64,000 bases of DNA from an uncultured Prevotella sp. (GCA_905234145.1 CAJOGK010000001.1:1-64000); one strand, 5' to 3'; counted from the first letter of the stretch, positions 35,630 through 59,351 are shown. Notes: generated by a model from the sequence alone, not told the origin. Made by a program: numbers and translations.

Positions 35630-36277
35630 TTATGAAAGACCGTCAAGCCACGAGAAGTCTTCTCTATGAGGGCCATCATGCCAGTACTCATAGAAGTCCT
35701 GCGAACAGGGAGGAAGGTTATCGCCTTGACCTTCACGGAAGATGTCGTCTGTTTCTTGTTCCGCCCTGTAACCTGCCATTTCCTCCTCCCATTCACCGAT
35801 CAACTCATCGTAGTAGCCATCGTATTTCTCTGCGAACATGTAATAATAGCATGTTCCGAAGTACCGACTGGTCAAATACTCCATCCTTTTGTCCCACCAA
35901 TCGTATTCGGGGAATCCAAGCGTTCTCCAAAGTTGACTGCAACGACGTTCTAGCATTTCGCATTCCGTTTCTGATATAACATCTCTAAGACTTACCCAGT
36001 TATTGTCGAACCAGACATATCGCCAATCGTCATAATCTTTCACATTAATAAGACTAGCCGTGAATCTCCACACCTTTCGAGCCCACCAAAAGTGACCTGT
36101 TTCTGCACAGAGATCACCAATACGTGCCCCTTTCATGTATTTCTGCTTGCAACTCGCTGCGCAGCGGATAGGATGAATCTCTCGGTTTACGATGTCTTTC
36201 AACAAACGGGCTTCAAGATGGATAACAACACCATTGGGCATGCAGCTGCACACCCGATAAGGAATTCTTCTTCTCAT
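35630..36277 (-). CDS. Hypothetical protein (215 aa) downstream of AAA+ ATPase 1
   Basis: 13-bp gap to the AAA+ gene; Trp/Tyr-rich; no recognisable family. Confidence 0.6.
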   Translation of the reverse strand: MRRRIPYRVCSCMPNGVVIHLEARLLKDIVNREIHPIRCAASCKQKYMKGARIGDLCAETGHFWWARKVWRFTASLINVKDYDDWRYVWFDNNWVSLRDVISETECEMLERRCSQLWRTLGFPEYDWWDKRMEYLTSRYFGTCYYYMFAEKYDGYYDELIGEWEEEMAGYRAEQETDDIFREGQGDNLPPCSQDFYEYWHDGPHREDFSWLDGLS

Positions 36278-36289
36278 ATAAACTGTTGT

Positions 36290-37972
36290 TTAAAATCCAA
36301 TTTTGGCTTTCGGGCGAGGAACCTCAATTGGAACAATGTCCTCTGGTGTGATTGCCAGCAATTCTGACTTGCCCTTTGTCTGCTGTTTTACGCATCTGGA
36401 TGCATGTTGGATATAAATGCGCTCTAGCAGGTTCCCAACAAAACGAGCATTGCCCCATGTTTCTGTGTCGCGGGCTTGGTAGGCCGATGACAAAACATCA
36501 ACATATTTCTGCCATGCTTCCTCAATGAACCTGTAGCCATAGTCCAGAACACGCCGTTTCGTAATTTCCAACAATTCGTCAATAGTGAAGTCTTGGAATT
36601 CAAATCTATTAGGGAAACGGGATTGCAATCCGGGATTGAGGTCGAGTAGTTTCTTCATCGGCTCATTATATCCACATAAAACGATAGCGATGTCACGTTG
36701 CGTCTCGTCGGCAAGGATATTCATCAGCAACTGTATCACGTTTTTACCTGGGTCGTTGGGGTGCGAGCTGTTCAGCAAATAGGCTTCGTCTATCATCAGT
36801 ACGCCTCCCTTCGCCATATCAAGAACCTGCCGTACAGAACGTTCTTCGTCACCCCACAATGTACCAATGAACGTACTACGGTCGCATACCACCACATGTC
36901 CCTTGGACAATGCTCCAGCCTGACGCAACAAAGAACCGTAAATCTTACAAACCGTCGTCTTTCCCGTACCGGGGCGACCAAGGAACAAGCTATGCAGTGA
37001 GACAACATGCTGTTTGGCTGTAGGACAGAACTGTTGGAGCATTTTGTTATAGCTGGTCAGGTTCAATAAATCGTCCATACGCTGTTTGATGTCATTGCAA
37101 CCTACAAGTTTGTCAAGTTCTTCACGGGGATTAGGTATGGGACGTAAAATTTCGACATTAACACTGACATTTGGATTCTGCTCTATTTCTCCATCAGGAA
37201 ATGATACGTCTTCTTCAGGAGTCGTATCATGCTCGTCAGCGTCGAAATCGCTCTCACCATCGTCATCGTCCATATCAAGCTCTTGATGATCTGCTGTCGG
37301 ACCATTCCCGAACGTTTCGTTATATTCTTTGTTGATGAAGTCGTTCAGCATTCTTTCGAACTCTTCGTATTCAGGATCTACAGCCTCCGTTTGTGAATTC
37401 TCCTCCAAATGAGGCTGATTGATGGGATTGCCCGTCTCTAAGGCAGGCAGCGGATTCTCGATCATAGCATTTACATAGCTCCTGCAGGCCAACTCTTCGT
37501 CTTCATTCACCCGTATCTTACGATATTTCAGCCTCTTCATATAATCTATGACCGTGACATTGTTGGAATCCCACATATCATAAAGATTGTATGCATTGGT
37601 AATGTCAGCTTCTGTTATTAACAGACCATACACGGGTATCATGAGTTGATTCTTGATTGAACGAACAGTCTGTACCAGCTTCCATACTTTGCTGACACGT
37701 GAATCATGTCCATCACTTAAAATAAGTGGACTGAGTGTTTCGGATTCTTCGTATGTCTGTTCTTCACAATGACCGCAGTAGTCAAGACATACCACGACCA
37801 TACTTGAATTGTCGCAATACAGATATACGTCGAAGTCCGTCAAATATGGGGCTAAGCCCTTCAAGTGAGAGGAATAGACGGCATAATTCACCGCCATGGC
37901 ATCTAAGTGTTTCCAGATAGTTGTTTGTGTCTGTTTTTTGAAATCATTAATGAGTCTATATTCTTTCCGCAT
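36290..37972 (-). CDS. AAA+ ATPase 1, SpoVK/CbbX-type, with acidic linker and unknown N-terminal domain
   Basis: Walker A LGRPGTGKTT, Walker B GGVLMIDEAYLL, NPGLQSRFPNRFEF, WGNARFVGNLLERI. Confidence 0.9.
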   Translation of the reverse strand: MRKEYRLINDFKKQTQTTIWKHLDAMAVNYAVYSSHLKGLAPYLTDFDVYLYCDNSSMVVVCLDYCGHCEEQTYEESETLSPLILSDGHDSRVSKVWKLVQTVRSIKNQLMIPVYGLLITEADITNAYNLYDMWDSNNVTVIDYMKRLKYRKIRVNEDEELACRSYVNAMIENPLPALETGNPINQPHLEENSQTEAVDPEYEEFERMLNDFINKEYNETFGNGPTADHQELDMDDDDGESDFDADEHDTTPEEDVSFPDGEIEQNPNVSVNVEILRPIPNPREELDKLVGCNDIKQRMDDLLNLTSYNKMLQQFCPTAKQHVVSLHSLFLGRPGTGKTTVCKIYGSLLRQAGALSKGHVVVCDRSTFIGTLWGDEERSVRQVLDMAKGGVLMIDEAYLLNSSHPNDPGKNVIQLLMNILADETQRDIAIVLCGYNEPMKKLLDLNPGLQSRFPNRFEFQDFTIDELLEITKRRVLDYGYRFIEEAWQKYVDVLSSAYQARDTETWGNARFVGNLLERIYIQHASRCVKQQTKGKSELLAITPEDIVPIEVPRPKAKIGF

Positions 37973-38097
37973 AATCTACATAATTCTAATCACTATAATA
38001 TAAAAAAGGTATAGGTCCCGCTAATATTGGGACGCGAGAGTTAATAGGCAAGTGCGCTAGCACCGACCTGTAGCAATTGTAGCAACATGTCAAAGAC

Positions 38098-38271
38098 CGC
38101 TTCAGCGAGTAAAGAGTGAAAGCCTGCTTTCAAACTCTTTCGAGCGCCAAAGGTCTTAGAAGCATCGCTTCAAAGAACGCGCAAGCCGAATGCAAAGTGA
38201 AAGCTCGCTTTCATACTTTGCTGAAGCGCTGCCGTTTTTCGAGACGAAGTCTCAATGAACGCACAAGCCGA
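38098..38271. repeat. Cluster of related hairpins and short repeats in the divergent AAA+ intergenic region
   Basis: Hairpins at 38098-38107, 38111-38140, 38159-38171, 38192-38221, 38241-38253; GAACGC(G/A)CAAGCCGA at 38175 and 38257. Confidence 0.75.
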
Positions 38272-38634
38272 CAAGGTACAATCCTCCCGTCGATTCTCAG
38301 ATTCTGTTCTATACTTCATCATTGAACCGCTCGGTACTTGGTTGTTTCCTTTGTCATCTTGTTCATTCTTGCTACAATTTTAAAATGTGATTTGTGATAG
38401 AATTATGTATTTCGGCTGCAAAAATAGCTAAAATTCCCGTCTCCACCAAATATTTTGAGGTAAATTTTGAGGTCTCTAATAATATATTTTTTCAGGTGAT
38501 AGAAAGTAATAGTATGAAGGCTCTCTTTAATGGTAGTGTTACACAAAAACAATTAAGGAATGGGAAAGATGGATAGATGAAAAAATGAAGAGCAAAGAGT
38601 AAGATTTGGAAAATCAGATAAATAATTGGTATAT

Positions 38635-40290
38635 ATGTCGATGGCAAACAGATTAATTGAAGATTTTAAGAAACAGACCAAGAATTCAATTCTTGAGCAC
38701 ATGGACAAGTTGGCAGTGAACAACACTGTCTATTCTACTCATTTTAAGGGCTACGAACCACATCTAAAAGAAAAAAATATCTTTATCTATATCCATGCTT
38801 CGAGTATGGTTGTGGTTTGCTTCGACCTCTGCGGACAGATTGAAGAGATTGCAGAAGAGGAATCACCTTATGGTGTTGGCAGACCAGAATACTATTCATC
38901 TAAAGGCCCACGAATCAGTCCTGTATATCGATTGTCAGAGTCTATTAAGAAAATGAAAAACCGTTTGAACGCAATCAATCCCCCTATGGAGATTTATGGC
39001 GTGGTGCTCTCTGAGACTAACATCCTTAATGCAGAAGACATGAAAGACATCTGGGATATGATGAATATCATTGTCATTGATAACTTAAAAAATCTCAGGC
39101 ATAGGGAGATTACAACCCATGACAACAATAATGCCAAAGCCAGAACAATCATACAAGCCATTTCTGACGAAAATGAAATCATCAGGAATTACACATTCAA
39201 ATCTCCGTATTCTGATGAAGACGAAGAATTTAAAAAACTTCTTGAGATGTACGTAAACGACAGTCCAGACGATGATGATGAATGTGAAGATGATGAATGT
39301 GAAGAAGACGACGATAACGAGATCAACTTGAACGATTTTCCTGAAGGAAGCGTTCATAAAATTGAGGATATATCATTTCCTGACGGAACCATCGATCAGA
39401 ACCAGAACATAAGCGTAAAAGTTGAAATTCTGCGCCCCATTGCCAATCCTCGTGATGAATTAGACAAATTAGTAGGGTGTACTGACATTAAGAAAAGGAT
39501 GGACGAACTGGTAGCATTAACCAGTTATAATAAGATGATGCAACAACTGTTTCCTAACAGCAAGCAGCATGAGGTATCACTGCATAGTGTGTTTCTTGGT
39601 CGCCCCGGTACAGGGAAAAGCACAGTTTGCAAAATCTTCGGGTCTTTGCTTCGCCAAGCAGGCGCTTTGTCAAAGGGTCATGTGGTAGTATGCGATCGTG
39701 GAACTTTCATTGGTACACTTTGGGGTGATGAAGAACGCTCTATGCGCCAAGTACTCGAGATGGCTCATGGCGGTGTGCTGATGATAGACGAAGCCTATCT
39801 GCTGAACGGCAAGCACGAGAATGATCCTGGCAAACTCGTCATACAACTGATGATGAATATTCTAGCAGACGAGACACAGCGAGATATTGCCATCGTACTC
39901 TGTGGTTACAAGGAACCGATGGAGCGACTGCTTGAAGCAAATCCTGGATTACAGTCACGCTTTCCAAACAGGTTTGAGTTCTCTGATTTTACCATCGAGG
40001 AACTGTTGGAGATTACACGTCGCCGAGTAAAGGAGTATGAGTACGAGTTTACGAAACCAGCATGGGAAAAGTATTGTCAGCTGCTCACAAAAGCCTATAA
40101 CGAACGAAATTCCAAAACTTGGGGAAATGCCCGTTTTGTCGCTAACCAACTGGAACGAATATACATCCAGCACGCAACCCGTTGTGTAAAACAGCACCCC
40201 ATTGACAAATTACAAATGCGTCTTCTTATACCAGAGGACATTCTGCCAATCGAAGTACCGAAGGAAAAGAGGCGTATAGGTTTCATTTAA
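38635..40290 (+). CDS. AAA+ ATPase 2, SpoVK/CbbX-type, paralogue of ATPase 1
   Basis: full-length similarity to 36290..37972; Walker A LGRPGTGKST, Walker B GGVLMIDEAYLL; ATG at 38635. Confidence 0.9.
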   Translation: MSMANRLIEDFKKQTKNSILEHMDKLAVNNTVYSTHFKGYEPHLKEKNIFIYIHASSMVVVCFDLCGQIEEIAEEESPYGVGRPEYYSSKGPRISPVYRLSESIKKMKNRLNAINPPMEIYGVVLSETNILNAEDMKDIWDMMNIIVIDNLKNLRHREITTHDNNNAKARTIIQAISDENEIIRNYTFKSPYSDEDEEFKKLLEMYVNDSPDDDDECEDDECEEDDDNEINLNDFPEGSVHKIEDISFPDGTIDQNQNISVKVEILRPIANPRDELDKLVGCTDIKKRMDELVALTSYNKMMQQLFPNSKQHEVSLHSVFLGRPGTGKSTVCKIFGSLLRQAGALSKGHVVVCDRGTFIGTLWGDEERSMRQVLEMAHGGVLMIDEAYLLNGKHENDPGKLVIQLMMNILADETQRDIAIVLCGYKEPMERLLEANPGLQSRFPNRFEFSDFTIEELLEITRRRVKEYEYEFTKPAWEKYCQLLTKAYNERNSKTWGNARFVANQLERIYIQHATRCVKQHPIDKLQMRLLIPEDILPIEVPKEKRRIGFI

Positions 40291-40308
40291 TTATCAAATA
40301 GCTATAAT

Positions 40309-41145
40309 ATGGAATATCTACAACGAAACAAAAACACTTCTACCAGTCTGTTACTAAAACGCTTTACTGATAAACAGAGCGGAAAAGTGAGTGAGGCGAG
40401 AAGAGAGATACAACACCGTTTCGACTATTTGGACTGGAATGTTCAGAAGCGAATACTGCTATACTTCCTGGATTCAGGCAAATCCGACAGGATGTGGGCT
40501 TATGCTAAGTTGCTCAAGTTCTGGGATGACTGTTTTGAGCCTATTGTGAGGTCACATTGGGAACAGTACCACGAAGATAAATGTGCTTGGTCCATCATCC
40601 GATTCTTCCCTGAGAGTTATGTTTGGGAACATCTAGAGGAACTATCCTCCGGCGAAAACTACTATCACATTTGCCTGAGGCTCGGTATGAACGAGGAGTT
40701 TACAATAGACAAAACAAAGTTGACACCAGAGAAGTATCTTTCCGTATTACACAGGACAGGGAGAAGAATCAATGAGGAAGAAGCCAATAGCTTGCTGTAT
40801 CAGTTAATTAAGGGTCTTTGCTTTAGAGGCCTATCCTTAAGAGATACCCGATACATGAGCTGTCATGACCGCAGTAAAGCACCATATCCTTATGACATTC
40901 CTACCATCAGACAATATATCTATGATTTGAATGATTTAGGCGTCAACAAGATATTTCATGTCTTTACCTCATGGGCAAATAAAATACAGACAGAAATTAG
41001 TAACAGCCCCGAATATCATCATCTTCAGTCGTTGTCATTGCCTGATGATGTCTACTTGAGGCTGCTCGCAGAAATAACGCTTGATTATACAAAACGGGCT
41101 TTGGCTATGTTTGCGCCATTAACTGAAATAAAATTGGGATACTAA
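40309..41145 (+). CDS. Hypothetical protein (278 aa)
   Basis: 19 bp downstream of AAA+ ATPase 2; no family recognised. Confidence 0.65.
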   Translation: MEYLQRNKNTSTSLLLKRFTDKQSGKVSEARREIQHRFDYLDWNVQKRILLYFLDSGKSDRMWAYAKLLKFWDDCFEPIVRSHWEQYHEDKCAWSIIRFFPESYVWEHLEELSSGENYYHICLRLGMNEEFTIDKTKLTPEKYLSVLHRTGRRINEEEANSLLYQLIKGLCFRGLSLRDTRYMSCHDRSKAPYPYDIPTIRQYIYDLNDLGVNKIFHVFTSWANKIQTEISNSPEYHHLQSLSLPDDVYLRLLAEITLDYTKRALAMFAPLTEIKLGY

Positions 41146-41196
41146 AATAAAAACTACATTTTTCTTAGATTTTTTTATTATTCAAATAATTATTAG

Positions 41197-41204
41197 TATA
41201 TTTG
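41197..41204 (+). promoter_or_regulatory. Bacteroidota -7 box TATATTTG before the vWA-tubulin-protease operon
   Basis: agtatatttgcac, 35 bp upstream of ATG 41239. Confidence 0.6.
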
Positions 41205-41238
41205 CACCCGACTAAAGATATAAAAGTATACTATAAAT

Positions 41239-42996
41239 ATGAAAAAATTTATTTGGGTATGGTGTCTTGTTGCATTTGTGATGTTTAACGTCACAGATTT
41301 ATATAGTCAAGACCAATTAAAGAAAAGCAATTATATATACATATTCGACTGTACTAAGTCGATGGTTAATTATGGTATCCTTGATGAAACCCTTGTTTTT
41401 CTTCATCAGGATATCAACGAGCGTATACCCGGAAATGAAATAACCATTCAGTTGTTCCAAGGGAGGCCTTTGGAAACAGTTCACTTTTTGCGAGAAGAAT
41501 TTGATGACAGTAAATGGTCTGAGATAGAACAACTAATCAGAGAACATGCGCAAAATGTGACTAATACAAATATTTGTAGCGCTTGGGAAGAGGGCCTCAA
41601 ATGCATTGACACAGGTAAATATAATTATATCTACCTCATGACAGATGGTGAAGATAATGCGCATGGAAGTAACGGAACAGCCATGGTGTGTAAGCTGATT
41701 CGTGAATGGTGCGGGAAGTTTCGTGATTCACGCGCTTATTATGTAGAGCTTTATAAAGGAGCTATGAATCAGGATATTTTGAAAGCCATAAAAGAGAGTT
41801 GTAATATTATACCTATTCACAGTGGTGATCACGACCACTTTATGGCTTTCGATAAGAATAAAATTACATTTAACACACGCGAATTAGAAAAAACAGCTAG
41901 ACTGCATAGCGACTGGTCTCGTGAATCACCTATGGAAATAATATGTTCCAACCCCTATTTTACGGTGACTATTGATGGACAAAAACTGAAAGAAGGCGGT
42001 ATTGTAGATTTTAAGATCTCGCCAAAGATAGATCTTCAGGATTTCAATGAGGCTATTAATCACGATTCGGAGTACAGGTTTACCATTAAACTGAATACCA
42101 ACAGGAAAGATCTTAAGATCCAGAATCCGGAGGTTGAGGTCGTTGTCATTAACAAACCTGAACGTATTATAAACACAGAAGTGACAGAAGGAGCGGATTT
42201 GGGATGTGCCCATTATTATCCTGCATTCCTTTTTTCCGAAGAAAGTAATCTCGACACATTATCAATAGATTTAAATGCTCAATTCAACGAAGAAGCCGTT
42301 CACATAGGTTCCTCCCTGACTATGCAAGTCATCTCTGATATTGACGGTGATGCTTACACATTATTATATAATGGGAAAGAGGTGAATGACAAGACATTTA
42401 CTATTAATAAGGATGATAAACAGAATCTATTGCAAATCATATTTGATCGGGAAGCAAAAGATGGAGACAGGAACTTCATCATAAAAACAATAGAAACTCA
42501 TCAGCTTGATCGTGTAAACCAGGTTGAACCTAATGATTTTGTCATAACACTCGAAGCAGAATACGACATTGACTGGAATCCGCTTAAGACATTCTTGTTT
42601 TGGCTAGGTATCATTATTTTAGGCCTGCTCATTATATGGCTGTGCCTGCTAAAGCCTATTGCTCGTCCTAATTTCAGAGGAATCAGGAGATTAACACTTG
42701 AAGACAAAAAAGATACGTCTTATTTCAAAACCATATCAGCCAAAGGTTATCGGGAGATTGTGATATGTAACAAGGCTAGTAAGCAGAATGTTTTCAGTAA
42801 AATCTTCGGAGGCAAAATCAACTATGAAGTTGATGGCCGTTGGAATCACCCCATCGTCATCACTCCTCACAAGAATGGCATTCATATTCAGGCGGGTATA
42901 AAGTATCTCGTTGACAAACACACTTGTAAGGTTGGCGAAAGCATGACTATTGATGGAACAGAACGGGATATGAAGGTCATTTTAACCGTAAATTAA
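41239..42996 (+). CDS. von Willebrand factor A-domain protein: signal peptide, periplasmic vWA, one TM, cytoplasmic C-terminal domain
   Basis: MIDAS-like IFDCTKSMVNYG and YLMTDGEDNAHGS; TM TFLFWLGIIILGLLIIWLCLL near residue 455. Confidence 0.8.
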   Translation: MKKFIWVWCLVAFVMFNVTDLYSQDQLKKSNYIYIFDCTKSMVNYGILDETLVFLHQDINERIPGNEITIQLFQGRPLETVHFLREEFDDSKWSEIEQLIREHAQNVTNTNICSAWEEGLKCIDTGKYNYIYLMTDGEDNAHGSNGTAMVCKLIREWCGKFRDSRAYYVELYKGAMNQDILKAIKESCNIIPIHSGDHDHFMAFDKNKITFNTRELEKTARLHSDWSRESPMEIICSNPYFTVTIDGQKLKEGGIVDFKISPKIDLQDFNEAINHDSEYRFTIKLNTNRKDLKIQNPEVEVVVINKPERIINTEVTEGADLGCAHYYPAFLFSEESNLDTLSIDLNAQFNEEAVHIGSSLTMQVISDIDGDAYTLLYNGKEVNDKTFTINKDDKQNLLQIIFDREAKDGDRNFIIKTIETHQLDRVNQVEPNDFVITLEAEYDIDWNPLKTFLFWLGIIILGLLIIWLCLLKPIARPNFRGIRRLTLEDKKDTSYFKTISAKGYREIVICNKASKQNVFSKIFGGKINYEVDGRWNHPIVITPHKNGIHIQAGIKYLVDKHTCKVGESMTIDGTERDMKVILTVN

Positions 42997-43016
42997 TAAT
43001 ATTAAATAATAAAACT

Positions 43017-45782
43017 ATGGCAAGGAATATTAGAAGAAGCCTTTTTATCGGGCTTGGAGGTACTGGCATGAACGCTATCCTCAACACTAAGAAAACGTAT
43101 TTGGACTCATACGGCGAAGTACCGCCTATGATAGGTTTTATGGGAGTGGATACCGATGGTGGTGAATTCGACAAACAAATAGTCACTATGCGGAATGGCC
43201 AAAAGGTGTCGCTTGCACAAGATGAACGAGTACAAATATCCGTCGAGGATCCTTTCCCCCTTTATACAGTAAACAAGCAATATCTTAGTTGGTTCCCAAC
43301 AGATAATGCAGGAGCCCTCATTTCCATGACAGAAGGTGCTGGTCAGGTACGCAGTAATGGTCGTTTTGCCCTGTGGACCAATCACCTTAAGGTATACATG
43401 GCCATTAACAACAAACTTACAGAAATTACAAGAATCCAAAACATCAACAATCCGAATTATAACATTCTGAACGGGAATCCCGTCATTAATATAGTCTTTT
43501 CTATCTGCGGTGGCACAGGCTGTGGTTCTTTCCTTAATGTGGCCTATCTTATCAGGCAGCATTTCCCTGGTATCGAAATAAACGCCTATGCTGTAATGCC
43601 TGGTGTCTTTTTTGCCATGAACGCACAAAAGACCGCCAATGCGCGACCTAATGCCTATGGTTCTTTGGAAGACATAGACTGGCTTATGTCACTTACACCT
43701 GAGAGCACACCTATAACGATAGAGAATCTGAATGACAGATTTTCAACATACATGACACCTTTCGACACTATAAAACTGATAGACAACGAAAATGCCAATC
43801 GAGACTCGGTGAATCATGTCAATGACTTGTGTGCCATGATCGGAATGGCTCTTACCACATTGGCAGGTGATACTTCTGCAGGTGCAGGAAGTGATCTTAA
43901 TAACTTGAAAGTCAGGATGTACTCCAAGAATTACGATATCGCCAACAAAAAAGCGTGGGCATCAGGAATAGGTATGTGTGAGATTACTGTGAACAGCAAT
44001 GAACTGAGTAGTCTATACAGCTTAAAAGCCGCTCAATATATTATTGACGAGTTGCTTTCCAGCACAGCCGATACTATGGCTTCGGCTACGGATTGGATTA
44101 ATGACATGCAAATTCGTGAGAACAATGGATATAACCAAGTTGTTGATTATATGTTCTCGGCAAATCCCAGAAGTGAAATGCCGGAGATCATCAACAGTAG
44201 CAGTCCCAACGGTGAAGTCAACAGCTGGTTGGATGCAGTAGCCAAACAGGCAGATGACATCAAAAACTATCCGCAGAAAGTTCAGGAATTGTCAACTCGC
44301 GTAGAGAATAGCCTTGAAACTTTTGTTGATAGTAATCTTCAGGCTCATGGCGTTATTTATACTAAGAATGTTCTTGAAGCAATTATTGCTCAAATAGATG
44401 CCTGCTACGATGAGATGGGGAAAGAGCTTGCTGCTTACAAGGAGAAAAAACAAGTTGCAGAAGGTTTGTTGAATAGCGCCATAGCCACACTTACAAATTA
44501 TGACCACCCATGGTATTCCCTCAGACGCAACCTCACTGAGGATTACAAAAATGATGTTGCATCCGCAGCTCTCTCTCTTGCTGTCAATATCAGAGAAGTC
44601 TATCGACGTGAAGCAGCTATCAATTTCTACAGTAAACTTAAGTCAAAACTGGATGCAATGAAAACAACCGTGGAGGATATCAAGGCACGCCTTGAGGGAC
44701 TTCGTCGAACCTTTGAGCAGCAAAAAGAGACTGTCAGACGCAGCATCGAATCACAGAAGCCTCTTTTCCAGATTGACCTTACATCAAAATATCTATCACA
44801 GGTTACTGTAAACGACAATGGACTGACCAGCTATTTCCTTGGTGCCAACAACGTATTGGCAATGGCAACAATGGAAAAAAAGGAGCTGGAAAAAATATTC
44901 TTGGACTACACTACGTCGCTTGATCAGACCCAGACTTGGAAAAAAATCAGTATTGACCAAGTCTTTGGACAGTTACCCGAAAATGAAAGAACAAGTATCC
45001 TTCATGAGGCCGTCAAGAAAAGTTCGCCTATGTTGAGATACCAGATTACAAGTCAAGGCATAACGCCAGAAATGAGACCCGATGAAACTTTCGTCATAGC
45101 TGTCCGCGACCACAACCAGTCGCCTGTTACTACACAAGAATTGCAACAGCATATTGACGATCCAAATGCCCGACCAGAATTCTGCAGTACAGGAGCAAAA
45201 GACTCCATTATCGTCTTCAGAATGGTAGGACCAGTACCTCCATGCGTCATCAGTAATATGACTACCTATCAGAAAAAAGCTGCCGATTCAACTTGGAATG
45301 TACACTTTGATGCTGTCATCAATGCCAGGATGCAGCGCGAAGGCTGGAGCCTCTTCCCATCCCAAGCCTCAAGTGACGCTCTAGAGCTTTGGGTAAAGGG
45401 CTTTATCTTTGAATTGATTAGAAACCGAGACGGACACTATCAGTATCAGGACTATAACGAGGCTTCTCAAGCTATATATGACTATTGGGTAGACCTTGAT
45501 CATCCCAAGAAAGGCGACCGCGCGACAGCATTCGAATTATTCAAAACGAAACTTAACGACAAAGACATGCACAATGCCTTTGTTAACGAATTGGAGAGTC
45601 GAATCAATAAAATCGGACAGGACAATTATAATGAAAAGATTGCCATTATCAAGGGCAAGGGTTATTATTATGACCAAATTTCACAAATCAATCTTAAACT
45701 TGAGACGCTCGAGGGCGTTGGCTACGATGCCATCAAGAGACAGATCAACAATGAGATTAATTATGTAACGAAAGAACTGTAA
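43017..45782 (+). CDS. Bacterial tubulin-like GTPase (Tubulin_2-type), 921 aa with long C-terminal coiled-coil extension
   Basis: N-terminal GLGGTGMNAI, FMGVDTDGGEF, tubulin signature FSICGGTGCGSFLNVAYLI. Confidence 0.82.
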   Translation: MARNIRRSLFIGLGGTGMNAILNTKKTYLDSYGEVPPMIGFMGVDTDGGEFDKQIVTMRNGQKVSLAQDERVQISVEDPFPLYTVNKQYLSWFPTDNAGALISMTEGAGQVRSNGRFALWTNHLKVYMAINNKLTEITRIQNINNPNYNILNGNPVINIVFSICGGTGCGSFLNVAYLIRQHFPGIEINAYAVMPGVFFAMNAQKTANARPNAYGSLEDIDWLMSLTPESTPITIENLNDRFSTYMTPFDTIKLIDNENANRDSVNHVNDLCAMIGMALTTLAGDTSAGAGSDLNNLKVRMYSKNYDIANKKAWASGIGMCEITVNSNELSSLYSLKAAQYIIDELLSSTADTMASATDWINDMQIRENNGYNQVVDYMFSANPRSEMPEIINSSSPNGEVNSWLDAVAKQADDIKNYPQKVQELSTRVENSLETFVDSNLQAHGVIYTKNVLEAIIAQIDACYDEMGKELAAYKEKKQVAEGLLNSAIATLTNYDHPWYSLRRNLTEDYKNDVASAALSLAVNIREVYRREAAINFYSKLKSKLDAMKTTVEDIKARLEGLRRTFEQQKETVRRSIESQKPLFQIDLTSKYLSQVTVNDNGLTSYFLGANNVLAMATMEKKELEKIFLDYTTSLDQTQTWKKISIDQVFGQLPENERTSILHEAVKKSSPMLRYQITSQGITPEMRPDETFVIAVRDHNQSPVTTQELQQHIDDPNARPEFCSTGAKDSIIVFRMVGPVPPCVISNMTTYQKKAADSTWNVHFDAVINARMQREGWSLFPSQASSDALELWVKGFIFELIRNRDGHYQYQDYNEASQAIYDYWVDLDHPKKGDRATAFELFKTKLNDKDMHNAFVNELESRINKIGQDNYNEKIAIIKGKGYYYDQISQINLKLETLEGVGYDAIKRQINNEINYVTKEL

Positions 45783-45802
45783 TCGCTAAACAAGCAAAGC
45801 CC

Positions 45803-48800
45803 ATGAAACATTTCACTTATTTGTTTCTTGGCGAGGTATTAGAAGAGTGTGCCACTCTCATCACTCAGAATATCCTTAAGGATGGAACTGATGAGCAGTG
45901 GCAACACTTCAATGCCTTGTTGTGGAACTTTAAACAGAATGAGATTGAAATAAAGGAATTAGTACACCATCCCCTAGATGAAGCGCAATTCTTTCCTGAT
46001 GACACCTACATTTACCAGATAGAGGGCAAGCCACTTAACCCGATTTCTGTATTCGATAACGAAAATCAAATCTGTGCTTTTTTTGATGATAATTTTCAAA
46101 CGCATATTACAAACAACGGGAAAATGCTTTTGAATATCATCCTGCGAGCTTCAGACAAATCACACGCAGACTTAGCAAAAAGTATTATTCGCCTGTTAGG
46201 AGAAAAGCGCCCAAATTATGATATTGACATCCTGTTGATAGCGCCAGACATCTATCCGTTATTTATTCATGACGAAGATTTATGTAAAAAAATGAAAGAA
46301 TCCATTCATGAAGAAAACCAAAAGGCACATGTTTTGGTGGATAAATGGATTAGCTTTCGAAAAGAGCAGGAAGCACGATGTCTCCAACAAATTATTTTAT
46401 TACAAAATCGAAGGAAAGGTGGAGGATCTTTCAACTTTGATCTTTCCACACTAACCCGTATCATCAGCGAATACGCTCTGACTTGCATAGAGAATTATGA
46501 AGAAATCTATGACCAGTCAACAGCCATTCGAATGAGAAAAGAAGGAAAAATTGCTGGTTTTGGAATTTCCTGTCTAGATTTCAACCGTTCCTATTACCTC
46601 AACTACATGCTTCATCATGCCTATCTGCACATCATGAAGCGTGAGGGGGTAAAACAAGAAGTCGCAGATGTAAACAAAGTGGCCCAGATAGCCACAGAAA
46701 CATTAGAGTCACGAATCAATGTTCTGACAAATTTCTATAACAAGCACATACAGTCAGGGATTGACAAGGGTAAATCTGGTGATGACATAGTCAGAAAAGG
46801 GCTGAACAGTCAGATGGATGAGTTTATCTCAGAGATGGAAAGTGCCATAACAAATCATATCAATGACGAAGACCTCACTCTTCCAGAAAAATCTGCACTG
46901 ATGGCACAAATTCTACTCAAGGATGAGGATATGCTATCCGGCTATTTATACAATAAGGACCAACCTGCATTTCTTGATCTCTTCCGTGAGCCCGTCAATT
47001 TCTTCATTGAGCATTATAACAATAGCTTAGAATTCGAAAAAGACGAGGAAGGTAATATCGTCAGAGATGAGGAAACAGGCATCCCTGTCATCAAAGATGC
47101 AATCATCTCAGGACCTCAAGACAATGAAGGCTACATTAAGGTTCCCTTTGACCAACTGAAAAAACTACGGATGGACATTCAACAAAGTTCAGAATTCATC
47201 CGTCAACGCTCAGAGGAATTATTGCAATTGGAGCAAAGCCAAGAAGCCATGAAAAAAGCAGATGACGTAGTGGTTGAAGATGACAACTATTTCAAACGTT
47301 TCAAACTCATCGGTGATGACATCAAAGAGGATCCACTTCAAGAGAATTATGAGCCTGTACCAACAAAGGAAACGAATATCGACCTCTCACATGATTTCAC
47401 GCCCGTCAAGAACCAAGGACCTGTTGGAGCCTGTACAACCTTTGCTGTGACTGCTGTCTACGAGCATATCCTTAAGAAGAATGACAGAGCGGATCATGAC
47501 CTCAGCGAACGCTTTCTATATTATAATGCCAGAGAAACTGACGATAGGCTTGATAAGGAGGGTGTGTCCATCAGCACCGCCATCCGCAGCATTGGCGATA
47601 AAGGTATCTGCTCAGAAGAAAAATGGCCATATTCTTTTGATGAGTATAACACAAAGCCAAGCGATGATGCATACCAAGATGCAGAATCCAGAAAAATCAA
47701 GAAAGCTCTGAACATTGTGTTGACAGACAATCAAGACGAAAACAGGGATGCCCTGCGTTCGGCTATTGCAGAAGGCTACCCTGTGATTATTTCATTGAAC
47801 CTGTTTGATGCATTTGACCATATTGGCAGTGACGGAATGGTGCCTGTACCTTCACCAGGTGACTCGATCCTTCAGCGCGAGGGCTCCGAATCCAGGACAT
47901 CGTCTCCACATGCTATGGTAGCTTGTGGATATGATGACAAGAATCAGGTGTTTCTTGTCAGAAATTCATGGGGAGAGCGTTTCGGTAAGAACGGTTATTG
48001 CTACATCCCCTATGCCTATATTTGTAACCACGAGTACTTGAATCATGCCTACATTATTACGGAGGTAACCGATGACAGTATAAAGGTTCGTGGTGTGAAA
48101 GGCCGCTATAAAGTTATGCTCGACCTCAACGACATCGGTGTAAAGATCGGACTTACACGCTATGCTATTGCGGCTAAGAAGAAAGAACAAGAACAACTTG
48201 TTGCCGAATATAATGCTATTTACGTTCAGTTCATGGCATTAATGGAATCTTTACGCAACCCTTCTGTACGCGAAGAAATCGTAGGAATAACGGGGGAACA
48301 CTATTCCCAAAGAGTAGAAGGACTCATCACTTTACACAAGCAGAAAGAGAACAAAAAGTCCATTGAACTTGATAACTATGACAAGAAAACGATATCGAAT
48401 CAAGTCAAAGGTTGGGCCATTTTTGGGGTAATAGTAGTTATTTTGGGTATTATAACCTATTATTTTGGCTATCTGGAGAATATAACCATCCCGACATGTG
48501 TTGCGCTTGGCATAGGAGCTATCGCACTTATCAGATATGCCTTCTATCGCAAAAATAAGAGATTTGCCCTTGAAGCAGAATTAGACGACGAAATTGCAGC
48601 TAACAACCGAGAACTCATTAAGGCACGCACAACCCTAAAAGAACTGGATTATCGCCAACATGTTGCTGGTATGGTATTAGACAACGTCGTCATCCTAAGC
48701 AATAAATTACAGGCACTTCAAACTGCACTTTACAATTTCGTAAAGAATTTATCTGCTTGGTATGATGAGGAAAACGAAAAGGTTCTAAATATGTCTCCTG

Positions 48801-49330
48801 AGGAAAAACCTCCATTCATCACGTTGCTGGACAATTCCGTTCTCGACAACTTCTTTGAGAAGATGAAAGAAGATCTCACAAAAGATATTCATCTCTACAA
48901 ATTCTGGAATGGGAACTATATTATTGATGATATGAAGATCCTGACGTTCAAGAATAGTCTAAAACAGCAAATAAAGGATGAATTATCTAAGTCACTTGAC
49001 GGTTTTAACGTATATGAGTATATAGCTGGCATTCGTCATTATCCATATTTAACAGATCATCAGGAAAATGATCTCCGCTCAGAGCACATTAGCAAACTGA
49101 ATGATTACTCTATGATTTTTCTTCTCCCTGTCAATAACAATCCAATGCTTGCAGCACATCATATTTTTGTCAAGTGTAAAGAAACGTTCGTACAAGAATG
49201 GAGAGATCTCTGTAAGCGAAACACCGAGGGCGGAGCTTCACAATGTGGAAATATCTCTTCACCATTTAAAGTATTAGAAATTCAATTAGAGTATATCAGT
49301 CTAGATAACATAACCATTTTGGCAACATAA
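45803..49330 (+). CDS. Papain-like C1A cysteine protease embedded in an 1175-aa protein with TM segments
   Basis: HDFTPVKNQGPVGACTTFA (Gln/Cys), SPHAMVACGYD (His), LVRNSWGERFGKNGYCYIPY (Asn); TM GWAIFGVIVVILGIITYYF and TCVALGIGAIALIRYAF. Confidence 0.88.
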   Translation: MKHFTYLFLGEVLEECATLITQNILKDGTDEQWQHFNALLWNFKQNEIEIKELVHHPLDEAQFFPDDTYIYQIEGKPLNPISVFDNENQICAFFDDNFQTHITNNGKMLLNIILRASDKSHADLAKSIIRLLGEKRPNYDIDILLIAPDIYPLFIHDEDLCKKMKESIHEENQKAHVLVDKWISFRKEQEARCLQQIILLQNRRKGGGSFNFDLSTLTRIISEYALTCIENYEEIYDQSTAIRMRKEGKIAGFGISCLDFNRSYYLNYMLHHAYLHIMKREGVKQEVADVNKVAQIATETLESRINVLTNFYNKHIQSGIDKGKSGDDIVRKGLNSQMDEFISEMESAITNHINDEDLTLPEKSALMAQILLKDEDMLSGYLYNKDQPAFLDLFREPVNFFIEHYNNSLEFEKDEEGNIVRDEETGIPVIKDAIISGPQDNEGYIKVPFDQLKKLRMDIQQSSEFIRQRSEELLQLEQSQEAMKKADDVVVEDDNYFKRFKLIGDDIKEDPLQENYEPVPTKETNIDLSHDFTPVKNQGPVGACTTFAVTAVYEHILKKNDRADHDLSERFLYYNARETDDRLDKEGVSISTAIRSIGDKGICSEEKWPYSFDEYNTKPSDDAYQDAESRKIKKALNIVLTDNQDENRDALRSAIAEGYPVIISLNLFDAFDHIGSDGMVPVPSPGDSILQREGSESRTSSPHAMVACGYDDKNQVFLVRNSWGERFGKNGYCYIPYAYICNHEYLNHAYIITEVTDDSIKVRGVKGRYKVMLDLNDIGVKIGLTRYAIAAKKKEQEQLVAEYNAIYVQFMALMESLRNPSVREEIVGITGEHYSQRVEGLITLHKQKENKKSIELDNYDKKTISNQVKGWAIFGVIVVILGIITYYFGYLENITIPTCVALGIGAIALIRYAFYRKNKRFALEAELDDEIAANNRELIKARTTLKELDYRQHVAGMVLDNVVILSNKLQALQTALYNFVKNLSAWYDEENEKVLNMSPEEKPPFITLLDNSVLDNFFEKMKEDLTKDIHLYKFWNGNYIIDDMKILTFKNSLKQQIKDELSKSLDGFNVYEYIAGIRHYPYLTDHQENDLRSEHISKLNDYSMIFLLPVNNNPMLAAHHIFVKCKETFVQEWRDLCKRNTEGGASQCGNISSPFKVLEIQLEYISLDNITILAT

Positions 49331-49345
49331 TAAAGCGATTTGAAT

Positions 49346-49738
49346 ATGAAAAAAGTAACTCTTTTTACAATTGTGGCATTTGCCATACTGTTATTTTCCT
49401 CATGCGACAAGAAACAGCGCGCTATCGACAATCTCAGCGACTTAGTTGAGAAGGTGGAGAAAAATGCTTCTGATTACACAGAAGAGGACTGGGCAGAAGT
49501 CGATCAACAATTTGATAAGATTATTGCTGAGATCGACAAGTATGATTACTCTAGTAACGATAGTAAGCGAATCTCAAAATTGAAAGGCAAATATTCTGGG
49601 ATTAAGACACGAAATAGCATCAGCAAATTTGTTGATGGTATCGACAAGGCCGCAAAAGAAGTAAAGGGAGCCATTGAGGGTTTTACAGAAGGACTTACAG
49701 GTGAAAATAATTCAGAAAAAGAACAAGACAATGAATAA
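49346..49738 (+). CDS. Small lipoprotein
   Basis: lipobox LLFSSC; helical, acidic; immediately downstream of the protease. Confidence 0.75.
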   Translation: MKKVTLFTIVAFAILLFSSCDKKQRAIDNLSDLVEKVEKNASDYTEEDWAEVDQQFDKIIAEIDKYDYSSNDSKRISKLKGKYSGIKTRNSISKFVDGIDKAAKEVKGAIEGFTEGLTGENNSEKEQDNE

Positions 49739-49749
49739 GAACAAGTACC

Positions 49750-50664
49750 TCATTTATTTGTCTCATGCAACTTTTTTAGCTCGTCAAAGTGCTCCATCGC
49801 TGTCTGATATCCAAGGTCTATCATCATCGATAGACTGTGAGGTTCATAATCCTTGATGGTGAAACCATTCAGATTGGGATGGATATAAATATCGGCATCG
49901 TCGATATTTTTTAATCGGCGGGGAATATCCGGGCGGGTATTAATCCACTTGGTTAATATGCCTAAGGTGGGTAGTCCAAGATCAAAGTCGCTGTTTCCCT
50001 GTTCCAAATCAATGGCAATCACGATATCAGCACCCATACGTCTGGCAACATCAACGGGCAGATTATTGACGATGCCACCGTCTGCCAACGACATTCCATC
50101 CATATCAATCGGTGCATTGCCCGGAGCAGGAAATGCCATAGAAATACGGATTGCTTCAGCAACAACTCCTTCAGACAGGTCTTTCTCCTTGATTTCACCA
50201 TTACTGATGTCTGTAGCCACACAAACAAAAGGTGTCTGAATGTGTCGGAACAGATGAGCGCCCTTTTGGGATAGGGCTTTATCCATCTGTTCCCTGAAAT
50301 ATGGTCCTCTCACTAGTCCTAACGTTGATCGGTTGTCACTCAACTGGAGCATTTTATAACCATCATATAGCCACATCCAATCTTCGTATAAAAGCAGCTT
50401 TTCAATCTCATCAGCAGTATAACCCGCAGCATAGAGTCCACCGATGACAGCCCCCATACTGGTGCCAACAACAAAATCAGCCTTGATTCCTGCTTTTTCT
50501 ATAACTTTTAGAGCACCAACTTCAGCAGCACCTTTCGCACCGCCACCACCAAGCACTATGCCAATTTTAGGACGTGACTCTTTAGGTGTTGATTTTGAAG
50601 CACATCCAATAAGCATCAGGCAACAGCACAAAGCGATGAGGAGTAAAGCATGGCTACTTTTCAT
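49750..50664 (-). CDS. Patatin-like phospholipase lipoprotein (RssA-like)
   Basis: lipobox LMLIGC; GGGGAKG oxyanion loop, GTSMG nucleophile, DGGIVNN aspartate. Confidence 0.9.
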   Translation of the reverse strand: MKSSHALLLIALCCCLMLIGCASKSTPKESRPKIGIVLGGGGAKGAAEVGALKVIEKAGIKADFVVGTSMGAVIGGLYAAGYTADEIEKLLLYEDWMWLYDGYKMLQLSDNRSTLGLVRGPYFREQMDKALSQKGAHLFRHIQTPFVCVATDISNGEIKEKDLSEGVVAEAIRISMAFPAPGNAPIDMDGMSLADGGIVNNLPVDVARRMGADIVIAIDLEQGNSDFDLGLPTLGILTKWINTRPDIPRRLKNIDDADIYIHPNLNGFTIKDYEPHSLSMMIDLGYQTAMEHFDELKKLHETNK

Positions 50665-51133
50665 AATGAATAGTCTTAGTCCGTGATTCCGTATAAGATC
50701 GTCTGCTTATAATCTTCTTGCTTTCCTTTTCAAACGTAACAATATATTCGTGATCGTTCTTTTTCGACTCATAGATGTTAGCACTATATTTCCGCCCTTT
50801 ATAGACATGCCCCAACCTTCCTTCAAAATCGTGGGTGCCATAAACCACTACTTCCCTTTCACCACACTGACGGACACTATCTACTTTTAAGGAACCGTTA
50901 ACGTATGACCTGGTGCCCCAGAAATCGTGATAAAGGTCGTCATAGTAGTCCTGACAGAATTTCTCCAACAGACCCTCATAGAACTCCTTCGACTGAACAT
51001 CGTTAGCACTATTGAAGAAGCCTAGGATGTTTGCACCACCATTATTTCCACATGCAACAAACAGCATCGGCAATAAAAGGCAAACGGTGGTATACCTAAA
51101 CCATATCTGTATTTTTTTTATTAATCTCATCAT
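50654..51133 (-). CDS. Hypothetical lipoprotein
   Basis: lipobox LLPMLFVAC; overlaps patatin start. Confidence 0.65.
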   Translation of the reverse strand: MMRLIKKIQIWFRYTTVCLLLPMLFVACGNNGGANILGFFNSANDVQSKEFYEGLLEKFCQDYYDDLYHDFWGTRSYVNGSLKVDSVRQCGEREVVVYGTHDFEGRLGHVYKGRKYSANIYESKKNDHEYIVTFEKESKKIISRRSYTESRTKTIHYEK

Positions 51134-51153
51134 TACAAGTCCTTATATGGGTG

Positions 51154-51161
51154 CAAATATA
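51154..51161 (-). promoter_or_regulatory. Bacteroidota -7 box TATATTTG upstream of lipoprotein/patatin pair
   Basis: CAAATATA on + strand. Confidence 0.5.
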
Positions 51162-51229
51162 GTGCTTTTTTCTTAACTATACAAGTATTCTACTATTTTA
51201 TAGCAGTATAGAAAGCATTTTGAGTCTTC

Positions 51230-52318
51230 TTACTCATTTACGAGATTACCTTTCCCATCGAGAATGATACCTGTATTGGTAAAATCAAAGACACAATAAT
51301 AGAGATTGGGACCGATACCTGTAATGGAAGAAAATTCCGGTTTAGTCAATGGCTTGCCCTCTGGACTCAACAATCCATAGTGGCCAGCATGGGTATAATA
51401 AGCCTTACATGGTGTTAGTTTGGTGATGTCTTCTCCTAATTCAGTTACATTTGTGGTGGTATAGTAGATGTCATCAATATCACCAGTAACGAACTTATAC
51501 TTCAAGGAACCGTCAAAATCCACCATCTGCATAGTATAGTCTTGAAGAACAACCGAGATACCATGTTCCATTACGTTTATTTCGCGGTATTCCACAGGGA
51601 TGACGGGTCGGCCTTTCTTGTCAATAAGGCCTCTCTGCTCATTCTTGTTCAATAGCCAATAGCCAGATTTGACATGAGCTATCCCATCATATTCCGGACA
51701 AATCACCCAATCCCCTCTCCTATCAATAATGCCCCACTTGCCTGACGCATCTGTCATGGCACAAAGACTGTCATAAAAGAGAAAACCGTATGAGAAATCA
51801 GGAAAACGGAAGTCCTTATCGATAACCACCTGACCGCGGGTATCAATGAACTTTATGGTACTGTCTTTCTCCATAACCGCTGCAAGTCCCTCAGAGAAGA
51901 GCCACGCCTTAGTATAACGTTCAGCAGGAATAACGGGACGGCCTGTACGAACGTCTAGGAAACCACGGAATCCCTTGCTGGCATAGCATGCCAATGTGTC
52001 TTTCTTGTTTTCAGAAGCAATGACCCACTTGACATCGCGGAGCACCTTCTTGTCAGTATTGTTGTTCTTGATATAGCCATGAGCACCATTGCTATAGAAG
52101 GTGATATGCTCGTTGATTACATCCTTGTAGGTGTAGTTGTCATAACGGTCGTCAAGAATAACAGAATGGACGAAACCACTAAGCGGGCGATGACAGATGT
52201 TGTAACAGCCCGTGATGAAGCACAAAATAAAGAAAGCATACAAGATAAAACAACCAGCCTTCTTGAGGTACACTAAGATGCGAAGATTGCGCATCTTTGA
52301 AAACTTACATAATTTCAT
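51230..52318 (-). CDS. WG-repeat protein with N-terminal TM
   Basis: GFRGFLDVRTGRPVIP, GKWGIIDRRGDWVICPEYD, GLIDKKGRPVIPVEY, GHYGLLSPEGKPLTKPEF. Confidence 0.85.
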   Translation of the reverse strand: MKLCKFSKMRNLRILVYLKKAGCFILYAFFILCFITGCYNICHRPLSGFVHSVILDDRYDNYTYKDVINEHITFYSNGAHGYIKNNNTDKKVLRDVKWVIASENKKDTLACYASKGFRGFLDVRTGRPVIPAERYTKAWLFSEGLAAVMEKDSTIKFIDTRGQVVIDKDFRFPDFSYGFLFYDSLCAMTDASGKWGIIDRRGDWVICPEYDGIAHVKSGYWLLNKNEQRGLIDKKGRPVIPVEYREINVMEHGISVVLQDYTMQMVDFDGSLKYKFVTGDIDDIYYTTTNVTELGEDITKLTPCKAYYTHAGHYGLLSPEGKPLTKPEFSSITGIGPNLYYCVFDFTNTGIILDGKGNLVNE

Positions 52319-52525: not shown

Positions 52526-53560
52526 ATGTTCAAGGTCTTTCTAGCAGAGAACATTCTGAGGAATATTATTCAGGCCGAGAGTCAACGACCGAATAATTCC
52601 CGGTCAGACCTATTCAAGATTCTTAAGTCTGCCAAGAATCTATACGTGGCTATGGATACTCCTGATTTAGCATGGATTAAACAGTTAAAAGATAATTTTG
52701 GTCTTGTGGCAGATACAACGAGAACAGAATATATAAAAAAAATTCCTGCCAAGCCAGAGACAGTGCTTAAGAATCCTTCTTCATTATTTATGCTTGATAT
52801 TCCACTTGCTGAAGCTAAGAATATCCAGATCGAGTATGGTGTAATGTGCCGAAGTGGCCAGGATATAAATATCTCGTCGTTAATCGACATCAACGACGAA
52901 CATACGACTGATAAAAATGAGCCTCTAGGTAGAGGATGGGACACGGTATTAGACAGCGTGGAGCCCCTACCCTCTAACGCACTCATTCTAACAGACCGTT
53001 ATCTGTTTAAAACCACTAATGCCAAATATGGTAATGGATTTGACAATGTGCGCAGTATTCTAACGGAGTTACTACCACGAAAGTTGAATACCACATATCA
53101 TATTACTATTATTTTTGATAAAGATAGCATTGATCCCCTTTATAACTTTCAATCTATTGCAAGACGACTAAACGGCATCAAAGAAGAATTTAAGCGTCCT
53201 TATCCCATAACGATGGAAGTATTGGGTATCACAGACAAAAACGACACTTATCACAATCTTCACAACCGTCGTATCGTTTCTAACTATTTCGTGGTAAAGA
53301 TGGATTATAGGCTTGCTGCTTTCAATAAGACTGTGGGTACAGTTGACCAAACGATTACGCCACAGGTATTGTTTACTGAGGACAGTCTGAATCGTCATTC
53401 TACAGCTCCATTAAAAACTATGGAGCAGATTATCTCTACTCTTCGTAAATTCTCTAATTCCCTATCGTCACCATACACCAAGCACGATAGCTACTATTAT
53501 GCGGTTAATGGTGAATGGATGGAGAAATGTATCTCAATTAGGAATAGATTGACAAAATGA
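52526..53560 (+). CDS. Hypothetical protein (344 aa), first gene of the TIR island
   Basis: ORF track; no family recognised; co-directional with TIR genes. Confidence 0.65.
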   Translation: MFKVFLAENILRNIIQAESQRPNNSRSDLFKILKSAKNLYVAMDTPDLAWIKQLKDNFGLVADTTRTEYIKKIPAKPETVLKNPSSLFMLDIPLAEAKNIQIEYGVMCRSGQDINISSLIDINDEHTTDKNEPLGRGWDTVLDSVEPLPSNALILTDRYLFKTTNAKYGNGFDNVRSILTELLPRKLNTTYHITIIFDKDSIDPLYNFQSIARRLNGIKEEFKRPYPITMEVLGITDKNDTYHNLHNRRIVSNYFVVKMDYRLAAFNKTVGTVDQTITPQVLFTEDSLNRHSTAPLKTMEQIISTLRKFSNSLSSPYTKHDSYYYAVNGEWMEKCISIRNRLTK

Positions 53561-53593
53561 TTTTCTCGGTAATGGGCAAATCGATTAAATCGC

Positions 53594-53601
53594 TAAATTT
53601 G
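53594..53601 (+). promoter_or_regulatory. Bacteroidota -7 box TAAATTTG abutting ATG 53606
   Basis: gctaaatttgtagcATGG. Confidence 0.5.
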
Positions 53602-53605
53602 TAGC

Positions 53606-54964
53606 ATGGAAAATAAAAAATACGATGTTTTCATTAGCTATAGCCGTCAGGACTATATAAAGGATGATACTATCATACCTAACAACCCAATATCTCGCAT
53701 AATGGAGTTGTTGGACAAGAATCATATTAGTTATTGGATAGACAAAGAGGGTATTTCATCTGGACAGCAGTTTGTTGAAGTCATCACAGAGGCGATTGTT
53801 AATTCAAAGATGCTCGTTTTTGTGTCATCAGAAAACTCTAACGCATCAAAGTGGACAGCAAATGAAATTTTTGAAGCCTATAATGAGGGAAAACTAATTA
53901 TACCTGTAAAAATAGACAATAGTGAATACAACAAAAAATACAGAATGATAGTTCGTCCATTTGATTTTATTGATTATAACAATCAGCCCAATACGGCATT
54001 GCCTTCATTACTAAAAGCGGTAAAAAAAGAAAAAGAAGAAATAGAGGAGATGGAGAAACAACTCCAGATTGAAAAGGAAAGAGAGAAGATTATTTTAAAT
54101 ATCTCGTCAAAGATTAAGGAGTTGCAAAGTCTTATGGGGCAACAAACTATCTTGCTCAAAGAACTATATGCCAATAGTAAGTTTTTAGGATTGAAAACAA
54201 AAGTATGTCCTGTTTGTAAATCCACTTCTTCTACAGAAGCATCCTTCTGCACGTCTTGCGGCTGGCAATATTCTCCCCTTTACGGTGTTTATAGTGTTGA
54301 CAGTCCCTTTCTTCATGATGAAACACAATTAAAAATCGTTCGTAATCTTTGGGAAAATGCTACAAGAAGCGAGAATTACAAAGTCCGTATAGAAACACTT
54401 GAAGAAGAATGTAAATCGTATCAAGAAAGTATTGAAAGATTAAAAGAGCATCAAAAGCTACAGTTAGAAGAGATAAAAACTCGTTCAGAAGAGGCTGAGC
54501 GACTACGGCAAGAGAATCAAAGAAAGGTTTTAAAGCCAATAGAACAAAATGGGAAACATGGTGGCCATATCCCTGAGATGCAGCAGCTGGTAAGTGAAAA
54601 TGTAGCAGAACAGCCCCGTAAGGTTTACGAAACCAAGGCCGAAGTGCTTCGTCGTGTGCAGGATATCGCCCATGGCGAGGATATACCGCAGAAGGAAGAG
54701 GTCGACTACCTGAAGACAGTGTTCTACAAGCTGATCATTGCAGAGCGTGAAGCCAAGTTGAAGGCTTATCTCGATGCTGGAGGCAATCTGGATACCTATC
54801 AGATTACACCTGATATGGATGAGGAGAAGTTCAAGGCCGAGATGGATATCATCAAAAAGCGTCGTGCCAAGATCTTCAAGGACAAGCTGCCCGGACGCAA
54901 CGACCCTTGTCCCTGTGGCTCCGGAAAGAAATTCAAAAACTGTCATGGAAGGGGAATAGTTTAA
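53606..54964 (+). CDS. TIR - coiled coil - zinc ribbon - DUF349 N-terminus-like segment - SEC-C protein
   Basis: [69 protein letters not shown]...; [19 protein letters not shown]. Confidence 0.85.
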
Positions 54965-55004
54965 TCCAAATCAGCAATAACAGAAGAATCAGAATAATTA
55001 AATT

Positions 55005-55275
55005 ATGAAAGCAACGGAAGCGCAAAAAAGAATCGTTGAATTCGTTGAATTGGGTTCTGGCAATGACATCATTGATGCAGTAGCAGGTGCTGATAAGACC
55101 ACCACGCGAATGGGATGTGTAAAGCTATCTCCTAGCTCGTTGTGAAACTAATGGATATGGAACAAAGAAAGATTTACATAGTGCATTGTTGGATTATCAT
55201 AACTATATAGGAATGTGTGGTGGAAATGAAACTATAAAAATAGAAGAATTAAAGCAAGAATTGGGTAAAGAATAA
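55005..55275 (+). pseudogene. Composite remnant: helicase-like N-terminal fragment (MKATEAQKRIVEFVELGSGNDIIDAVAGADKTTT) joined out of frame to a Sel1-repeat-like C-terminus (SYLLARCETNGYGTKKDLHSALLDYHNYIG)
   Basis: manual translation; short ORFs below the ORF-track cut-off; Walker A-like GAGKTTT degraded to GADKTTT. Confidence 0.6.
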
Positions 55276-55318
55276 AACTATATAATAAATTATCAGACAC
55301 CAATAAATTGAAATATCT

Positions 55319-56686: not shown

Positions 56687-56707
56687 ACACAAAAATGTAT
56701 TGCGAAC

Positions 56708-59302: not shown

Positions 59303-59351
59303 GAATTATGGAGTACTTGATGGAAATGATGATAGAACATGACTCAGAAAA

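Follow-up and report, generated by a model that had tools for sequence, protein, structure and literature searches.

We analyzed a 64,000-nt stretch of DNA from an uncultured Prevotella (the window), with the focus on positions 35630–49738. As judged from the sequences of this locus and its relatives, the true unit consists of the genes for a vWA-domain protein, a tubulin-like protein (Tub), and a large papain-type (C1A) protease, in this order (41239–49330), often with a lipoprotein gene added. An initial annotation of the same DNA had described a larger machine, which also included two AAA+ ATPases (AAA1 and AAA2), a small partner of AAA1, and a 278-aa protein. All of the open reading frames that it named are present where it had placed them, and a hidden Markov model search assigned Tub, the C1A protease, AAA1, AAA2, and the lipoprotein, while the vWA protein (41239–42996) gave no match in a scan of the Pfam library. 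The unit has the following features, with lengths in amino acids (aa) and membrane-spanning segments as TM (transmembrane).

41197–41205, + strand: candidate Bacteroidota −7 promoter element TATATTTGC (consensus TAnnTTTG), 42 nt 5' of the vWA start
41239–42996, + strand: inner-membrane vWA protein, 585 aa; signal segment, periplasmic vWA domain with a MIDAS-type motif, one TM segment (453–471), and a predicted cytosolic C-terminal domain of ~110 aa
43017–45782, + strand: FtsZl1/Tubulin_2 GTP-binding protein (Tub), 921 aa; Pfam PF13809, E = 7.3e-49; center probably coiled-coil
45803–49330, + strand: large membrane-anchored C1A protease (papain, xylellain-like), 1175 aa; Peptidase_C1, E = 3.9e-17; protease domain ~520–755, TM hairpin ~873–914
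49346–49738, + strand: small lipoprotein, DUF6565 (Pfam, E = 8.1e-10); optional member

The gaps in the run from the vWA gene to the lipoprotein gene are 20, 20, and 15 bp, and that on the 5' side of the vWA gene is 93 bp. The MIDAS-type motif of the vWA protein, DCTxSM (D37xT39xS41), is invariant in six relatives, together with T108/T110 and T135-D136-G137. An N-terminal hydrophobic signal segment is followed by the single TM segment predicted from hydrophobicity, and both the motif and the TM segment are kept in six loci. There are eight lysine or arginine residues after the TM segment versus one before it, and because the basic residues come after it, the C-terminal ~110 residues are expected to lie in the cytosol.

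We assign Tub to the known family FtsZl1 (Makarova and Koonin, PMC2875224; Pfam Tubulin_2, PF13809), with a Tubulin_2 score of 167.3 bits against a cut-off of 27. The loops T1 (GLGGTG), T2 (DTD), T3 (GAGQxRSNG), and T4 (GGTGxG) are conserved, and G14, G15, and G165-G166-T167-G168 are invariant in eight relatives. The Tub profile aligns with FtsZ across T1–T4 (E = 7e-4), and a global alignment of the two gives nothing past T4. Long helices were modeled in the center of the protein, at 397–578 with pLDDT <65, and weak profile matches to coiled-coil chains were also seen. Tub is distinct from the ordinary cell-division FtsZ, which is also present in the same genome (G000:C10:14949-15422).

All eight relatives keep the papain Q-C-H-N residues of the C1A protease (Q538, C544, H703, and N721), and the nearest solved chain is that of xylellain (3ois, E = 7.3e-41). 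The likeness to the xylellain C1A peptidases lies in the protease domain. However, the window domain is embedded in a membrane protein of 1175 aa, with an N-terminal region of ~500 aa and a C-terminal region of ~400 aa that are of unknown fold. Both outer flanks of the TM hairpin (873–914) are basic, the loop between is without basic residues, and there is no signal peptide; because of this pattern of hydrophobicity and charge in the hairpin, the papain domain should be cytosolic. The claim in the initial annotation that the vWA, tubulin-like, and membrane papain proteins form one unit with this topology is supported. Xylellain-like C1A proteases are also common in IMG/VR viral contigs (L193–L272, 281 relatives), where the matches span about the protease domain.

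Conservation and movement of the unit

Relatives were gathered by a Tub protein search and then by genus, family, and order searches, with a genus sample of 200 genomes. The three genes occur in the same order in seven other loci (L009, L112, L113, L114, L115, L053, and L065), with the vWA gene split in L053. The closest relative, L009, is from another uncultured Prevotella and has a Tub that is 75% identical. Relative to the window proteins, Tub is 75–20% identical in these loci and the C1A protease 65–20% identical. The divergence of the three proteins is congruent (Mantel r = 0.92, 2–4 of 720 permutations). Tubulin_2 is above the cut-off in 35 of the 200 genus genomes, and the five that have a full-length C1A protease are all among these 35.

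In one genome (G606), the three genes sit between queG and a GH20 gene that are adjacent in another (G655), which argues that they come or go as a unit. The DNA of the window is collinear with that of L009 at 41306–50992 and 51357–52301; homology thus begins at 41306 and stops at 52301, marking a cassette. In each of the five loci whose clean upstream sequence is long enough (the window, L009, L112, L113, and L114), the promoter consensus TAnnTTTG is located 42–57 nt 5' of the vWA start, against a background frequency of 0.45 per kb per strand. It was not found within 120 nt before Tub, the C1A gene, or the gene for a 278-aa protein that precedes the vWA gene, nor within 300 nt before AAA2. 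It is also absent from L115, L053, and L065, where the upstream sequence is short or the first gene is different.

A phage-borne origin was considered and rejected, as no Tubulin_2 relative was found in the viral contigs, and the C1A matches there cover the protease-domain region only. The plasmids searched hold no close relatives of the unit and give remote Tubulin_2 and domain-only C1 matches.

Related operons and their peptidases

FtsZl1-vWA operons were described in 2010 by Makarova and Koonin (PMC2875224), who proposed a role in vesicle formation or membrane remodeling. The window operon resembles theirs in the tubulin family, in its patchy spread, and in the adjacent gene for a vWA protein with a signal peptide and TM segment, recognized here by the MIDAS-type motif. 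In the main text of that paper, the partners listed are protein kinases, a diverged GTPase, and OmpA proteins; a peptidase is not among them, whereas the window operon has a C1A protease. Kinase, GTPase, and OmpA partners have no Pfam match among the window genes at 41239–49738. The system had been called undescribed; for the FtsZl1-vWA pairing this does not hold, but the peptidase partner goes unnamed in that main text. Our literature search, mostly without subscription papers, turned up no account of FtsZl1 with a peptidase partner, which appears to be an undescribed part of these operons.

Two other groups of systems are similar in part. The GTPase-centric GAP1-N2 systems (Kaur et al. 2020, PMC7159879) also have a tubulin and a membrane vWA protein, with a predicted role in conflict. 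However, they include a TRAFAC GTPase and GAP1/FNIII components, none of which was seen in Pfam scans of the three genes and their near neighbors, and their tubulin theme is reported from actinobacteria and firmicutes. The MoxR-vWA ternary systems (PMC7159879, PMC12839542) share the logic of an NTPase, a vWA protein, and an interchangeable peptidase, but in the window the NTPase is tubulin-like rather than MoxR, and the vWA protein is periplasmic and unfused to an effector.

In most of the vWA-bearing Bacteroidota FtsZl1 operons examined, a gene for a large peptidase lies close to that for the tubulin. In total, 14 peptidase loci of four families (papain, transglutaminase-like, calpain, and zinc HExxH) were found. 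Two vWA-Tub operons (L319 and L320) encode a protein of ~980 aa with a Transglut_core domain (E = 6e-18 and 1.7e-9) in which the Cys-His-Asp residues are visible. In L058, an 1147-aa protein with a calpain domain (E = 1.3e-13) follows Tub. Three loci (L044, L188, and L322) encode proteins of 1249–1278 aa with the motif HE(L/M)THIWQ (HExxH) and a downstream E-G pair; L322 is the only one of the three in which the vWA gene itself was directly read. When the N-terminal regions of the C1A proteases and of the transglutaminase-type proteins are compared as profiles, the match has E = 0.008 and a probability of 5%, a hint only, from which we claim no common domain. Three vWA-bearing loci are without a visible peptidase (L190, L191, and L192, the last of which ends at a contig edge), and the link between vWA, FtsZl1, and a peptidase is therefore frequent, not universal.

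Motif inspection of the commoner Bacteroidota FtsZl1 operon (~23 loci) reveals no vWA or peptidase gene, and a Pfam scan of one of these loci likewise gives none. In a phylogenetic tree, the tubulins of the cysteine-peptidase operons form one clade (98/90), and those of the vWA-less operons are separate (100/100). The vWA-less operons (L048, L046, and about 20 alike) encode a protein of ~200 aa, Tub of ~1030 aa, and then proteins of ~260, 370, 240, 335, 506, and 255 aa, nearly all without an informative Pfam match; some contain a second, shortened Tubulin_2 gene. More distantly, Thermus and Meiothermus plasmids (L325 and L326) have genes for a vWA protein, a tubulin-like protein, and a ~678-aa protein of unknown type, followed by brxL, beside defense-like genes. 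On an Azospirillum plasmid, an FtsZl1 gene is located beside two caspase-family genes.

Proposed mechanism and alternatives

We see about an even chance that the unit works as a module of membrane sensor, tubulin scaffold, and protease output. The vWA domain would bind a ligand or damage, changing the cytosolic tail of the protein. This change would drive or release the GTP-dependent assembly of Tub beneath the membrane, and the assembly would cluster and activate the protease, which would then cut cytosolic targets. Since the gene set persists amid changing surroundings and the peptidase family varies by lineage, proteolysis as such is likely to be the output, and the peptidase family could therefore change while the sensor and the tubulin stay.

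This sensor-to-protease logic is plausible from the sequences, but its interactions, activation order, and substrates are putative, and other points also weigh against it. The T7 catalytic residues of FtsZ are unrecognizable in the Tub family, both by alignment and by profile comparison, so GTP-dependent polymerization is putative; the missing T7 agrees with the report of Makarova and Koonin (PMC2875224) that they could not identify FtsZl1 elements beyond H5. An AlphaFold model of Tub, made from two sequences, had a pLDDT of 33 and was set aside. The L065 protease is without the TM hairpin, and the DUF6565 lipoprotein has a homologue 3' of the C1A gene in L009 only and is thus unconserved. The sample is only 14 peptidase loci, and in three of them (L044, L188, and L322), the HExxH peptidase gene lies one or two genes past Tub. 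Finally, the C1A, calpain, and transglutaminase domains have the same overall fold, so that some of the apparent swaps could be old divergence.

More speculatively, and with greater doubt on our part, vWA-FtsZl1-peptidase operons could be a general class of membrane-surveillance systems, in which a periplasmic sensor acts through a tubulin-family assembly on an interchangeable protease, as a cytoskeletal analogue of inflammasome-type protease activation. We found no known job for FtsZl1 since its description in 2010, and a peptidase partner of variable family would give it a concrete biochemical output. A set of three genes is small enough for reconstitution, and if the tubulin does gate a protease, this would be a new use of the tubulin fold.

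The unit may serve an envelope response, defense, or self-killing; its surroundings do not settle the purpose. A system for phage defense or abortive self-killing, with a vWA protein that detects phage or attack on the envelope and a protease that kills the cell or brings it to arrest, is possible but rather unlikely. It would fit the rare and patchy accessory spread (5 of 200 genus genomes), the recurrence of different peptidase families, and several gene neighborhoods: TIR and WD40 genes near the unit in the window, a TerY-P-like set with poly-AAA in G1175, a NucA nuclease in G594, and, among the distant operons, brxL in Thermus and Meiothermus and the caspase-family genes in Azospirillum. 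However, three of the loci (G606, G728, and G137) lie amid housekeeping genes (GH20, PNPase, and nadC), and viral contigs gave no Tubulin_2 relative. PADLOC (PADLOC-DB 2023) returned no families at E = 0.1 for the vWA protein, Tub, or the C1A protease, and weak, non-specific matches only for the lipoprotein.

Less probable still is the role proposed by Makarova and Koonin, in membrane remodeling or vesicle formation, with the protease merely processing a component. The same family and vWA pairing appear in their main text (PMC2875224), and membrane proteins are encoded on either side of the tubulin gene. However, the peptidase family differs in relatives, whereas an enzyme that processes a conserved component would be expected to be conserved itself; the commoner vWA-less operons have no visible peptidase at all, and a cytosolic tubulin relative without a recognizable T7 may not constrict membranes.

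Neighboring genes

The genes around the unit in the window are as follows.

35630–37972, − strand: AAA1 and its 215-aa partner; a separate conserved gene pair, judged to be outside the unit
38635–41145, + strand: AAA2 and the 278-aa protein; neighbors, judged to be outside the unit
49750–52318, − strand: patatin-like lipoprotein (Pfam Patatin, E = 3e-29), 159-aa lipoprotein, and WG-repeat protein (WG_beta_rep, E = 7.9e-22)

The opposite-strand patatin-like, 159-aa, and WG-repeat genes accompany the unit in L009 only. AAA1 and AAA2 are paralogous, as the initial annotation had recognized, with 58% identity. Both are AAA plus AAA_lid_6 proteins in Pfam, and their nearest NCBIfam families are SpoVK/CbbX, at scores far under the curated cut-offs. 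At least 17 of the 200 genus genomes encode proteins like AAA2 that include its N-terminal domain. The 215-aa protein has a homologue directly beside a gene of the AAA1/AAA2 family in 10 of 18 stretches displayed (window 35630–37972 and L160–L177), in unrelated contexts.

We read the AAA+ ATPases as bystanders from a separate locus; they belong to widespread families of their own, and the vWA gene has its own promoter motif. The proposal that they gate the protease through remodeling of the complex is very improbable. In its favor, they adjoin the unit in the window genome, and CbbX-like poly-AAA genes lie ~12–18 kb upstream of it in G1175. However, no other genome with the unit has a near full-length AAA2; homologues are absent from G720, G606, and G728, and G594 and G1175 have partial or core-domain homologues only. 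The AAA gene and 215-aa partner occur as a pair alone elsewhere, and in G723 (L161) AAA2 runs directly into homologues of genes that lie at 52.5 and 56.7 kb in the window, with no triad between. In L009, neither the AAA+ ATPases nor the 278-aa protein is beside the three genes. The 278-aa protein was also tried as part of the unit and rejected, because its family is scattered on other contigs of ~24 of the 200 genomes and because of the 93-bp gap and the separate vWA promoter motif. Like the 215-aa protein, it is absent or unlinked in other genomes with the unit, and membership of either in the unit is unsupported.

Other neighborhoods are varied. Directly upstream of the unit in G1175 (L180 and L181, G1175:C2:95000-133900) is an operon-like run with genes for a 2227-aa poly-AAA protein, a vWA protein, a PP2C phosphatase, a kinase, an FGE-sulfatase, a WG-repeat protein, and a zinc-ribbon protein. 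Downstream of the unit, G594 (L115, 202–5762) encodes an endonuclease of the NucA type with a membrane anchor, together with the His-Xaa-Ser peptide-system proteins HxsB/HxsC/HxsD. In the window, positions 52526–62142 encode an orphan 344-aa protein, a TIR-zinc ribbon-SEC-C protein, a TIR protein, and two WD40-repeat proteins, relatives of which are those found directly 3' of the AAA2 homologue in G723. The divergent AAA genes are separated by 660 bp, which contain repeated and inverted stretches at 38020–38320, seen by eye, for example, AAGTGAAAGC..GCTTTCA.

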